Positions 53,774-57,049 of a stretch of DNA of 64,000 nt are shown here, in pieces. The DNA lies in the NCBI RefSeq assembly GCF_011009015.1, contig NZ_CP048878.1:795501-859500 (forward strand), written 5' to 3'. The DNA comes from Spartinivicinus ruber (lineage in GTDB: Bacteria; Pseudomonadota; Gammaproteobacteria; Pseudomonadales; Zooshikellaceae). Numbering within the stretch: position 1 is the stretch's first letter; every line of letters begins with the position of its first letter. Position numbers and translations under genes: made by a program. A model generated the notes under the pieces. It saw nothing but the letters and a program-made list of their open reading frames with translations, was not told where the DNA came from and searched no databases.

Positions 53774-54820
53774 ATGTCAATTGATTCAGCAAAATTGAGT
53801 TTATTTAGATTTGTAGAAAAGGTCCCTTTGGTGAGAGGTAAACTGGCAAAAACGGTTATTGCTGTTGTTGTAGTGCTGGCTATTGTGAGCTTTGCAATAG
53901 GCAGCTATTGGAGTATTGAGCCAGACCTGTTTGATGTAAAGGAAGCAGCTAAACAAAAAGCTGCAGAATTGCAAATGGAAGTTGTGCCTGGTTTCACTAC
54001 ATCGACTACTTTATCAAAAGTTACAGGAACACTATTAAATAAGCCGGGCGGCTATCTTTCTAACGATGTGATGGTACCTGGGGTACTCTTGGATAATATT
54101 CCAAGTTGGGAATTTGGAGTATTAGTTCAGGTTCGTGACTTATCAAGAGCCATGCGAAAGAGTTTTAGTCGCTCTCAATCCCAGTCTGTTGAAGATAAAT
54201 TATTAGCAAAAGCAGAACCTAAGTTCAGTTTCGATAATAAAAGCTTTATCTTGCCCAGCACTGAAAGTAAATATAAAGAAGGCTTGCAGCTGTTAAATAA
54301 ATATATTGAAAAGTTGGCAAACCCAAGTGAGCCTGATGCACAGTTTTATACCCGTGCAGATAACTTGAATGACTGGTTGCAAGATGTATCAAGTCGACTA
54401 GGTAGCATGTCACAACGACTAAGTGCCAGTGTAGGGAAAGCCCGATTAAATACATCACTTGCTGGTGATCCTGATGCAGAAAGTGCAACTTACCAACAAA
54501 CTATAGAACAAAAGAAAACGCCCTGGTTTGAAATTGATAATGTATTTTATGAGGCAAGAGGTGCTTCTTGGGCTTTGATTCACTTTTTAAGAGCAGTAGA
54601 AGTAGATTTTGCTGGTGTACTGAAAAAGAAGAATGCGTTGATCAGTTTGCAGCAAATAATCCGTGAACTAGAAGCCACCCAGGAAACCGTTTGGAGCCCA
54701 ATGGTGCTTAATGGTGGTGGATTTGGTTTTTGGGCAAACCATTCATTGGTGATGGCATCTTATATTTCTAGAGCTAATGCTGGTATTATTGATTTAATGG
54801 ACTTGTTACAGAAAGGATAA
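53774..54820 (+). CDS. DUF2333 family membrane protein
   Basis: A 348-residue protein with one N-terminal membrane helix (about 26-45, 'TVIAVVVVLAIVSFAIGSY') and a large periplasmic or cytoplasmic helical domain with conserved 'GGYLSNDVMVPGVLLDNIPSWEFGVLVQVRD'. This is the DUF2333 family of unknown function, common in gammaproteobacteria. It lies 113 bases after lapD with a possible own promoter (TATAAT at 53731-53736, poor -35) and is closed by a strong terminator. The link to adhesion is only by position. Confidence 0.8.
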   Translation: MSIDSAKLSLFRFVEKVPLVRGKLAKTVIAVVVVLAIVSFAIGSYWSIEPDLFDVKEAAKQKAAELQMEVVPGFTTSTTLSKVTGTLLNKPGGYLSNDVMVPGVLLDNIPSWEFGVLVQVRDLSRAMRKSFSRSQSQSVEDKLLAKAEPKFSFDNKSFILPSTESKYKEGLQLLNKYIEKLANPSEPDAQFYTRADNLNDWLQDVSSRLGSMSQRLSASVGKARLNTSLAGDPDAESATYQQTIEQKKTPWFEIDNVFYEARGASWALIHFLRAVEVDFAGVLKKKNALISLQQIIRELEATQETVWSPMVLNGGGFGFWANHSLVMASYISRANAGIIDLMDLLQKG

Positions 54821-54845
54821 ATTTAGTTTAGATTAAACTTTTGTC

Positions 54846-54880
54846 AAAAAGCCGTGTCAAAACCACGGCTTTTTTGTTTG
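54846..54880 (+). terminator. Rho-independent terminator after the DUF2333 gene
   Basis: An 11-bp stem AAAAAGCCGTG/CACGGCTTTTT (54846-54856, 54864-54874) with a 7-base loop and continuing T tract. Confidence 0.92.
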
Positions 54881-55608
54881 TTATTTTTACAAGGCTTGTA
54901 GTTTATAACCAATATAAAATTTTAAGCTGCTGATTTATATCATATTCTAAAGCTGGTTTAAGAATTGCTTATTTACCGCAAATGATAACTGCTTAAAGCT
55001 AAGGTATTTTTAGGTATCGGCAGAGTATAACCCAGTTGTTTATCTCGGTTTATAGATAACTACGGTAGTATGCTTAGGTATTACAATTTGGGTGTCGTAT
55101 GACTATACATACGTTTTAGAAAAAAGTAGAAGTTGAAAGAAGGAAATAATCAACCCGATTATTTATGAACTTCTTCACATTATAGCGTATTTGCTTATTG
55201 GGTATTAGGGTATAAACTGTCGTCTTTTTTTGGTTGCAGTAAGCTCAGGGCGAATGGTAACGATTGTTACAGCCAGAGTATTGTCGTTATGTCCAATGCA
55301 GCTATACCCACAATGCGAAGGATATGTGTATGAAGGGCAAATAGCCAATCTATGATTAGTACGAACGTTCTCGCATATAATAATAGGGAAGTGAACAAGT
55401 AGCAATTTATTTGTTAATAATTACTTATCTTTTGGATGTGCTTTATAGGCTGCTTATTAAAATTAAGCAATGAAAAGTTTGCAATGTTGATTATGAACTG
55501 TAGCCACACGGTCATTGAAGTATACAGTCGTGCTTCATTTTTAGATGTAGAACCAATAGCAGGAATACTCACGGCGAAAGGTGTAACTAGTAGGAGAGAG
55601 TTGAGCTG
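54881..55608. other. Long AT-rich non-coding region before the CsrA-like gene
   Basis: More than 700 bp without a convincing gene. It contains a strong hairpin at 55129-55173: inner AAATAATC/GATTATTT (55144-55151, 55157-55164) and outer GAAGTT/AACTTC (55129-55134, 55168-55173). A TTATC/GATAA pair lies near 55040-55060. GGA trinucleotides are present but not enriched. An sRNA or an unusually long 5' leader of the CsrA-like gene is possible; no terminator was found directly before that gene. Confidence 0.45.
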
Positions 55609-56088
55609 ATGTTAAAATTAACCATTAAAAAAGGTCATGCTATTTGTATCGGGGATGATGTTCGAATTGAATTTGAACCTGAGCATTATAAAGATAAAAT
55701 TCATGTTAAAACGAAAATATTTGCACCTGATGAGGTGCCAGTAAAGCGCTTAGAGATTTATGAAAATAGGGAAGAGATAGAAAAAGATTTAAATGATTAT
55801 TTTAAGCGTGTTAAGAAAAATAAACAGAAAAAACAGCTGGTTAAAGGAAATAACTTTAAAAATAGTCCGCTAAAAAGCTCTAACTCGCCACAGTTTGGTA
55901 ACTATAGAACTAAAAGTGTTCACTTACCTTTTATGGAGGAAACAAACACTAGCTTTGAAAGCGAAGCTCAAGAGAATAAAAAACAACCTAAAATTATTTT
56001 CAAAAAGAAGCGGGCATATAGTCATTTAGAAACCACTAAGCCAACTCGGCAGGCTCCTCAGCTTGAAGCAGAAACATCAAGTAGCTGA
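55609..56088 (+). CDS. Divergent CsrA/RsmA-family protein with long basic C-terminal extension
   Basis: A 159-residue protein. Residues 1-60 align with CsrA: 'MLKLTIKKGHAICIGDDVRIEF' for strands 1-2 and 'IFAPDEVPVKRLEIYENREEIE' for strands 4-5 and helix. The key Leu4 and Arg44 equivalents are kept (Leu4, Arg47), with a 3-residue insertion between strands 2 and 3; E. coli Arg6 is Ile here. CsrA binds ANGGA in mRNA leaders and controls translation. Unlike the usual 60-65 residues, this one adds about 95 residues rich in Lys, Asn, Ser and Thr, likely disordered and RNA-binding. AGGAG lies 12 bases upstream. Probably an accessory paralogue; the housekeeping csrA is not in the window. Confidence 0.75.
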   Translation: MLKLTIKKGHAICIGDDVRIEFEPEHYKDKIHVKTKIFAPDEVPVKRLEIYENREEIEKDLNDYFKRVKKNKQKKQLVKGNNFKNSPLKSSNSPQFGNYRTKSVHLPFMEETNTSFESEAQENKKQPKIIFKKKRAYSHLETTKPTRQAPQLEAETSSS

Positions 56089-56098
56089 GTTTATCAAA

Positions 56099-57049
56099 CT
56101 ATATATCCAAATCTAACTCAAGTAGCTCCGCCACCTTACCTGTAGAGGGCTGACTATTTAAAGCACGAAAGCTAATGGGACGACTAAAATTAGTTGAAAT
56201 GGTTAGTTGGGCTGGGTTATCAATAAAACTTTTTAAGGCATCAAGCCAGTCCTGGGCATTACGTTTGACAACTTGTTGTGACTCTAACTGTGTTAGCAGT
56301 TGCTGATAATGTGGCTCTGAAAGTAATTCAATAATCGTAGAGTCAGGGGTTTTGACTTGGGCCAATTGGAACCATTGTTGAAATTTGCGAATAAAGCCCT
56401 GATCCAGATAAGTCGCTTGCAGTTGCGTTAAGCGAACACTTTCCCAGTCTGTTTGGTTACTAAACAGGTTAACAATATTTAATTGTGCAGCGGCTGTCTC
56501 AAGTAGTGAAAGCCTATCTAAGGATAATTTGGCATTAATTTCGCCTAACTGATTTGCACTCGTTTTAAGGTTGAGTGTTAACAAGTCTTCAGCTTGATTG
56601 TAATTCCAGTCAACATGAAAATTAATGGGTAGTTTGTCATAGCCCATTGCAACCAACATATAAACAAATTGGTTATCACCAATAGTGCGGTATAAATCGG
56701 CGTCTTCAATTAGTTTGGCTTTATAGCCGGTTATCGCTAATTCACCTTGCTGTAAATGGGTAATGTCTTGCAGCTGGGTAAAGCTGGTTTGTAATGTTTC
56801 AGCCTCTAAATTAAAAGCGGGCAAGTTACCCCATTTACTTGCTCCACCTTGGTGTTTTAACACAGGTTTGGTTAATGTAATAACACCAGTGATAGGGTTC
56901 ATTGATATGCTTTGATAGCTGAGATGTTGATCTAGCTCTATGTCTATTAAAGCCTTTTCAAACTGCTGTACAGCATTGAGTTGCAAATAAAACCAGCCAC
57001 CAGTAAGAATACCAATAACACAGCCGATAATTATTAAAACTCTAATCAT
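56099..57049 (-). CDS. Membrane-anchored envelope protein of unknown function
   Basis: A 316-residue protein with one N-terminal membrane anchor (about 3-22). The rest is a presumed periplasmic domain alternating beta strands ('YQSISMNPITGVITLTKPVLKH', 'GELAITGYKAKLIED', 'EDLLTLNLKTSANQLGEINAKLSLDRL'). The general pattern resembles AsmA- or DUF945-type proteins, but I cannot assign a family. It ends 10 bases from the convergent CsrA-like gene and lies 18 bases after the next envelope gene, so they are probably cotranscribed. Confidence 0.6.
   Translation of the reverse strand: MIRVLIIIGCVIGILTGGWFYLQLNAVQQFEKALIDIELDQHLSYQSISMNPITGVITLTKPVLKHQGGASKWGNLPAFNLEAETLQTSFTQLQDITHLQQGELAITGYKAKLIEDADLYRTIGDNQFVYMLVAMGYDKLPINFHVDWNYNQAEDLLTLNLKTSANQLGEINAKLSLDRLSLLETAAAQLNIVNLFSNQTDWESVRLTQLQATYLDQGFIRKFQQWFQLAQVKTPDSTIIELLSEPHYQQLLTQLESQQVVKRNAQDWLDALKSFIDNPAQLTISTNFSRPISFRALNSQPSTGKVAELLELDLDI

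Follow-up and report, generated by a model that had tools for sequence, protein, structure and literature searches.

The variability of CsrA C termini and the existence of accessory CsrA paralogues are already established (PMC7366521, in the portion of the article available). The same portion describes the C-terminal extension as highly variable, which contradicts the first-pass annotation of the DNA analyzed here, where CsrA had been presented as normally strictly conserved. Several core residues have been linked to RNA recognition: in RsmE, the side chains of Thr5, Arg6, and Glu46 contact RNA (PMC4005645, accessible sections), and Arg44, located at the end of beta5, is essential for RNA binding in RsmA/CsrA (PMC7366521, accessible sections). 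The equivalent of Arg44 in RsmN is dispensable in some assays (PMC3791407, available part). As far as the available text of PMC7366521 goes, direct protein partners in the CsrA superfamily are described as lacking experimental evidence, FliW and CesT being the cases named. CsrA paralogues present in one cell may split targets, mix dimers, or recruit different partners.

We analyzed a window of 64,000 nucleotides from Spartinivicinus ruber (genome G000) that contains a gene for a protein of this family, termed P0001. The features of the gene and its surroundings are compiled in Table 1, together with eight further CsrA-like genes of the same genome.

Table 1. Features at the P0001 locus (window positions) and further CsrA-like genes of G000 (locus:positions)
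Feature	Position	Strand	Details or basis
CsrA-family paralogue P0001	55609..56088	+	159 aa; PF02599 match; syntenic orthologues; purifying selection
Shine-Dalgarno AGGAGA	55592..55597	+	11 bases 5' of ATG
Intrinsic-terminator-like hairpin	54846..54874	+	3' of upstream DUF2333 gene; conserved in gap alignment
Candidate -10 element TATAAT	55376..55381	+	tentative; gap alignment only, absent from listed site predictions
CsrA core, residues 1-53	55609..55767	+	Pfam range; family alignment; structure model
3-residue insertion, about residues 26-28	55684..55692	+	gap placement in alignments; exact residues alignment-dependent
Extended C-terminal helix, residues 54-80, predicted	55768..55848	+	structure model
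Linker, residues 81-122, low-confidence, probably disordered	55849..55974	+	pLDDT about 50; amino-acid changes
Conserved basic motif near C terminus, residues 123-135, NKKQPKIIFKKKR	55975..56013	+	codon comparison within genus
CsrA-like gene of G000	L029:2999-3334		
CsrA-like gene of G000	L030:2742-3077		
CsrA-like gene of G000	L031:2899-3204		
CsrA-like gene of G000	L032:2778-3107		
CsrA-like gene of G000	L033:2709-3044		
CsrA-like gene of G000	L034:3028-3363		
CsrA-like gene of G000	L035:2860-3189		
CsrA-like gene of G000	L036:3256-3561		

Gene, core, and predicted structure

P0001 is a genuine member of the CsrA family and a real gene. The Pfam profile PF02599 (CsrA) matched residues 1-53 with 38.4 bits (cut-off, 27 bits; E 1.2e-9), and residues 1-60 alone scored 42.3 bits, which bears out the family assignment made at first reading. 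The scores with the csrA equivalog models were far under the cut-offs (28.1 versus 73 bits for NF002469 and 22.7 versus 70.1 bits for TIGR00202), and P0001 is therefore a CsrA-superfamily paralogue and not a csrA orthologue. A normal csrA of 61 aa was found elsewhere in the same genome, and the remaining four genomes of the family have one each. Residues 61-159 alone had no match in Pfam or NCBIfam, and residues 118-159 had none among the PDB sequences.

No other open reading frame (ORF) of at least 60 aa overlaps that of P0001 on either strand. The gap of 788 bp upstream of the gene, reported in the first-pass annotation, is real (54821-55608). Intrinsic-terminator-like sites numbered 2, with 0.9 expected; since such a hairpin follows the upstream DUF2333 gene, P0001 probably has its own transcript. 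Two blocks of the gap, 55150-55235 and 55360-55425, are conserved in three species of the genus, the latter containing the TATAAT-like element, which has one mismatch in L039. These blocks could be a promoter or an untranslated leader; no regulatory RNA family of Rfam scored above its gathering score in 54500-56500. The gene had further been placed next to c-di-GMP/adhesion genes, regarded as classic Csr targets. Genes for LapD, LapG, and a GGDEF response regulator do occur nearby, with the DUF2333 gene and the gap in between, but LapD and LapG are absent from the regions retrieved around the orthologue of both Zooshikella genomes, and this neighborhood is thus weak evidence on targets. A mobile origin of P0001 was considered and rejected: tblastn gave no match in 50,697 phage and 72,556 plasmid records and none was confirmed in viral contigs, a result that excludes close relatives only, because ordinary CsrAs were not retrieved either, so that the synteny in five genomes described below is the better argument.

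The core pattern noted at first reading was found in full, namely, (i) the ORF and its length, (ii) the MLKLT start, IGDDV, and APDEVPV-R-EIY, (iii) Leu4 and the equivalent of Arg44, which is Arg47, and (iv) the loss of Arg6, which is replaced by Ile6. Thr5 and Glu49, the equivalent of Glu46, are kept as well. Arg47 and Glu49 are invariant in the family members (7/7). Arg47 is also invariant in the 43 rows of a wider CsrA-like alignment (43/43), a count that proves nothing because most rows had been picked with a pattern in which R-x-E is mandatory at this place. Nor is the retention of Arg47 proof of function, since the Arg44 equivalent of RsmN is not needed in every assay (PMC3791407, available part). 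The insertion of 3 residues exists, but alignments and model strands place it in the beta3-beta4 turn, which is the KGNQ loop of CsrA, and not between beta2 and beta3 as had been thought. Similarly, the CsrA pattern is kept over the first 60 residues as claimed, but the conserved part is longer: residues 1-70 are identical in all three species compared within the genus, and the predicted helix continues well past residue 60. The initial idea of an accessory CsrA-family protein stands: a normal csrA is also present, and the set of RNA contacts is altered, with Arg6 lost, the beta3-beta4 loop changed, and Thr5, Arg47, and Glu49 kept.

The structure of the P0001 monomer was modeled with 43 aligned CsrA-like proteins, which replaced a 7-row model (mean pLDDT 45.9). 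The model had a pTM of 0.36; its core was confident, with block means of 74-92 pLDDT up to residue 70, and the tail was of low confidence. Strands were predicted at residues 11-14, 18-27, and 30-38, corresponding to beta2-beta4, followed by the helix; beta1 and beta5 were not assigned as strands. In a Foldseek search with this model, two CsrA chains took ranks 1-2, namely 5z38 (prob 1.00, E 0.012) and 2bti (E 0.041), and no match was as good as E 0.001. VIA-align listed exclusively CsrA/RsmA/RsmE at ranks 1-7 (Z 4.6-3.9). Unrelated chains, with a metallo-beta-lactamase first, come next at Z 3.6, no more than 1 below the top rows. The scores of both searches are modest. P0001 probably forms the usual dimer of CsrA, in which five-strand subunits would swap beta1 and beta5.

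Orthologues and selection on core and tail

A search with P0001 returned strong matches (E 2e-15 or better) at 7 loci in 5 of 56 genomes, including its own. These five, two from Zooshikella, are the family genomes returned by the search. All five share synteny at the locus, with the DUF2333 gene upstream and two opposite-strand genes downstream. At the Zooshikella locus, one extra ORF lies between the DUF2333 gene and the orthologue, and the two downstream genes are only 25-30% identical. Both Zooshikella genomes contain, in addition, a second, shorter P0001-like copy (97 and 107 aa).

Over residues 1-70, the comparison of G000 with its congeners G001 and G002 revealed 0 nonsynonymous changes and 21 and 23 synonymous changes, respectively, and the two Zooshikella orthologues likewise differ by 0 nonsynonymous and 22 synonymous changes. 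For the tail, omega was 0.15 versus G001, whereas dS was saturated versus G002; the same comparisons gave an omega of 0.015-0.07 for three neighboring genes. The tail evolves faster than the neighboring genes, yet it is constrained.

The first-pass annotation had described a basic tail rich in Lys, Asn, and Ser. The basic extension is present, with this composition and a net charge of +10, but the description has to be corrected for a conserved motif close to the C terminus. The peptide KIIFKKKR lies in it, and we defined the motif as [IV]-x-[FVI]-K-K-[KR]-[RK]. In the block of 13 codons that covers the motif there are 0 amino-acid changes and 6 (G001) or 5 (G002) silent ones, whereas the 52 codons before it (residues 71-122) have 18 and 21 amino-acid changes, respectively. 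Between G001 and G002, amino-acid changes amount to 0/13 in the motif block and 6/52 upstream. The motif blocks of the two Zooshikella orthologues differ by one amino-acid change (Arg/Lys) and 3 silent changes. The motif is also found in the longer of the second copies in Zooshikella, and in the shorter one it is cut short. Selection acts on the core and on the motif of P0001, and the motif recurs in a second group of CsrAs. As the tail holds a constrained motif, the early suggestion that it adds contact with RNA or the ribosome is plausible.

Distribution of the motif and of related CsrA-like genes

The second group consists of CsrAs from four genomes of family f29, genus g92 (L075-L078), which have near-normal cores (PF02599, 85.6-90.3 bits) and tails of 55-80 residues ending in a P0001-type motif. 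Such proteins occur in 4 of 5 g92 genomes, corresponding to 4 of the 15 genomes returned for f29. In a core tree of 58 columns, a strong branch (100/98) sets the P0001 group apart from the rest, and the f29 group (89/83) falls among the normal CsrAs; that the two motif-bearing groups fail to make up a single clade is tentative because of the few columns, the long branches, and possible false joins.

Among 146 distinct CsrA-like proteins collected, 10 have the motif, all from the P0001 family and f29, and this set is biased, in that the loci were gathered largely by profiles that include the tail and the proteins were picked by a pattern requiring R-x-E at the place of Arg44. Outside these 10, L042 carries a truncated form (KIHFKKR followed by a stop), and the remaining 135 lack the motif. 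A similar pattern at 80 viral loci gave only 46 CsrAs, 0 of which had the motif. In shuffled sequences, the motif appeared with frequencies of 0.0004-0.0021 for the ten proteins, values that overstate its rarity because it was defined after the sequences were seen. A DNA pattern of the motif, without Ile at the third motif position, occurs at 6 places in the 6.7-Mb G000 genome (control, 3), and P0001 is the only one of them in an open frame of more than 42 codons. Among the matches listed outside the family, only G309, G292, and G681 (with an internal stop) extend past profile position 110. The tailed CsrAs of G151 and G327 came to light only when their frames were read; profile searches may have missed further tailed CsrAs.

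In a phylum-wide sample, 18 of 397 other genomes had matches at E up to 1e-6, and 16 of these are in family f246, which we take as zetaproteobacterial since the protein at L238 is identical in sequence to the one in the named record L048. The six P0001-type homologues of f246 that were read are 75-81 aa long without a long tail. Acidithiobacillus has similar cores (AICIGDD). At L236 and L237 of f246, a stretch of 3 kb contains two different CsrA-like genes, one of the AIHIGDD/RLEIY type and the other nearer normal CsrA.

The eight further CsrA-like proteins of G000 are 101-111 aa long. They look like either single-chain CsrA pairs, with beta1-4 followed by a second half ending in APxxxxIxRxELE, or CsrAs with an insertion of about 40 residues; in L031, Pfam reported two CsrA stretches, and the profile alignment favors one CsrA with a long insertion. 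Seven of the eight directly precede a small ORF and an integrase-like gene, the integrase being confirmed by Pfam at three loci (L030, L031, and L035), and the surroundings of L029 were unreadable. Two IMG/VR contigs from a single source contain identical copies of three of the eight. They are probably regulators of mobile elements. In another genome, G010, a CsrA is fused to a cold-shock domain (L127:308-709; PF02599, 2e-24; PF00313, 4.4e-14), and the same contig has a second match of equal score and open-frame length.

Explanations and comparison with known systems

We lean toward P0001 being an accessory RNA regulator of the CsrA type, one whose target choice is altered and whose tethered basic peptide contacts RNA or a partner. 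Its core would form a CsrA dimer that binds GGA-type sites through Leu4, Thr5, Arg47, and Glu49. With Arg6 gone and the beta3-beta4 loop remodeled, its choice of targets should be distinct from that of the normal CsrA with which it shares the cell. In each subunit, the long helix and a flexible linker would lead to the constrained peptide. This peptide most probably serves as a second, tethered point of contact, be it with RNA beside the site bound by the core, with the ribosome, or with some other partner in RNA processing. We infer the dimer, its RNA binding, the altered target choice, and the contact made by the motif. The loss of Arg6, an RNA contact in RsmE, speaks against a role as an RNA regulator. 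Of all readings, that of a decaying or functionless csrA duplicate, with a low-complexity tail drifting in an AT-rich genome, is hardly credible: the divergent core and the fast-changing tail would fit it, but the silent changes without any amino-acid change over 70 codons argue strongly against it, as does the synteny in five genomes.

Contact with RNA and docking of a protein are equally compatible with the evidence on the motif, which could dock a protein instead. It may be a short peptide on which a protein partner such as an RNase, a helicase, or a chaperone docks; the core would then deliver RNAs to this partner or be switched off by it, in the way that FliW and CesT act on other CsrAs. 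We regard this as a reasonable, less probable alternative that overlaps with the accessory-regulator reading, which leaves the partner open. A short conserved motif behind a variable linker has the usual look of a docking peptide, but a strongly basic motif fits RNA equally, and no FliW was found in G000: PF02623 had 0 matches at E up to 10 in this genome, listed as 100% complete, and was above the cut-off in 2 of 14 named control genomes. Control of P0001 by FliW is therefore unlikely. RsmZ-type sponge RNA had a best E of 2.0 in G000, under the cut-off, a limit at which 12 of 14 control genomes also match, with 0 over the cut-off, which deprives the result of weight. It is unlikely, too, that P0001 antagonizes or modulates normal CsrA, lowering or redirecting its activity through heterodimers or competition for sites. 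The hydrophobic core positions, which we take to be the dimer-forming positions of CsrA, are kept in the alignment while Arg6 is lost, and a P0001-type protein and a normal CsrA coexist in all five family genomes searched. Heterodimers of paralogues are plausible, though not demonstrated (PMC7366521, in the portion available). However, Arg47 and Glu49 are kept in all seven family members, the core is frozen and not relaxed, and a pure antagonist has no obvious need for a conserved basic motif about 70 residues past the core.

Beyond P0001 itself, a recurring CsrA architecture is conceivable though rather doubtful, in which a dimer with two tethered basic arms would dock a conserved partner, the ribosome or the RNA-decay machinery, thereby making a delivery factor out of a sequence-specific RNA binder. 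The motif would tentatively have been gained or moved more than once, because the two motif-bearing lineages form no single clade in the core tree. In the literature titles and beginnings of abstracts searched, from which subscription papers are largely absent, there was no description of a P0001-type motif, and a search with the same coverage of subscription papers found no mention of CsrA together with Zooshikella. A frozen core joined to a short, separable, conserved peptide offers a clean test case for the function of CsrA C termini.

P0001 shares with CsrA/RsmA/RsmE (PF02599), whose chains are at the top of the structure lists, the core pattern, Leu4/Thr5, and the equivalents of Arg44 and Glu46, and it differs from them in (i) Ile in place of Arg6, (ii) a beta3-beta4 turn that is 3 residues longer, (iii) Leu in place of Glu45, (iv) an extended helix, and (v) a tail of about 100 residues. 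RsmN/RsmF of Pseudomonas aeruginosa is likewise an accessory CsrA paralogue with an insertion, next to a normal RsmA (PMC3791407, accessible sections). According to the same sections, RsmN lacks the C-terminal helix and has a helical insertion of 16 residues between beta2 and beta3, whereas the insertion of P0001 lies between beta3 and beta4, is 3 residues long, and is accompanied by a longer helix followed by a tail; the site and size of the insertion and the predicted helix 54-80 set P0001 apart from the RsmN/RsmF type. RsmM, RsmH, and RsmL resemble P0001 in having a longer C terminus on a CsrA core, but their extensions consist of extra helices, plus short strands in RsmM and RsmL (PMC7366521, available portion), and not of a long helix followed by a low-confidence tail with a basic motif. 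The FliW-regulated long CsrAs of Bacillus and Campylobacter also have a C-terminal extension as a possible interaction surface, whereas the genome of P0001 has no match to FliW. The best core matches outside the family are zetaproteobacterial and Acidithiobacillus CsrA-like proteins (L048, L049-L055, L236-L238, and L241-L243), which have the same [AV]I[CHR]IG[DN]D core type as P0001, with AICIG in L238 as well as L048-L055; those of zetaproteobacteria also have RLEIY. Unlike P0001, these proteins are 75-88 aa long where read, have no long tail, and have kept Arg6.
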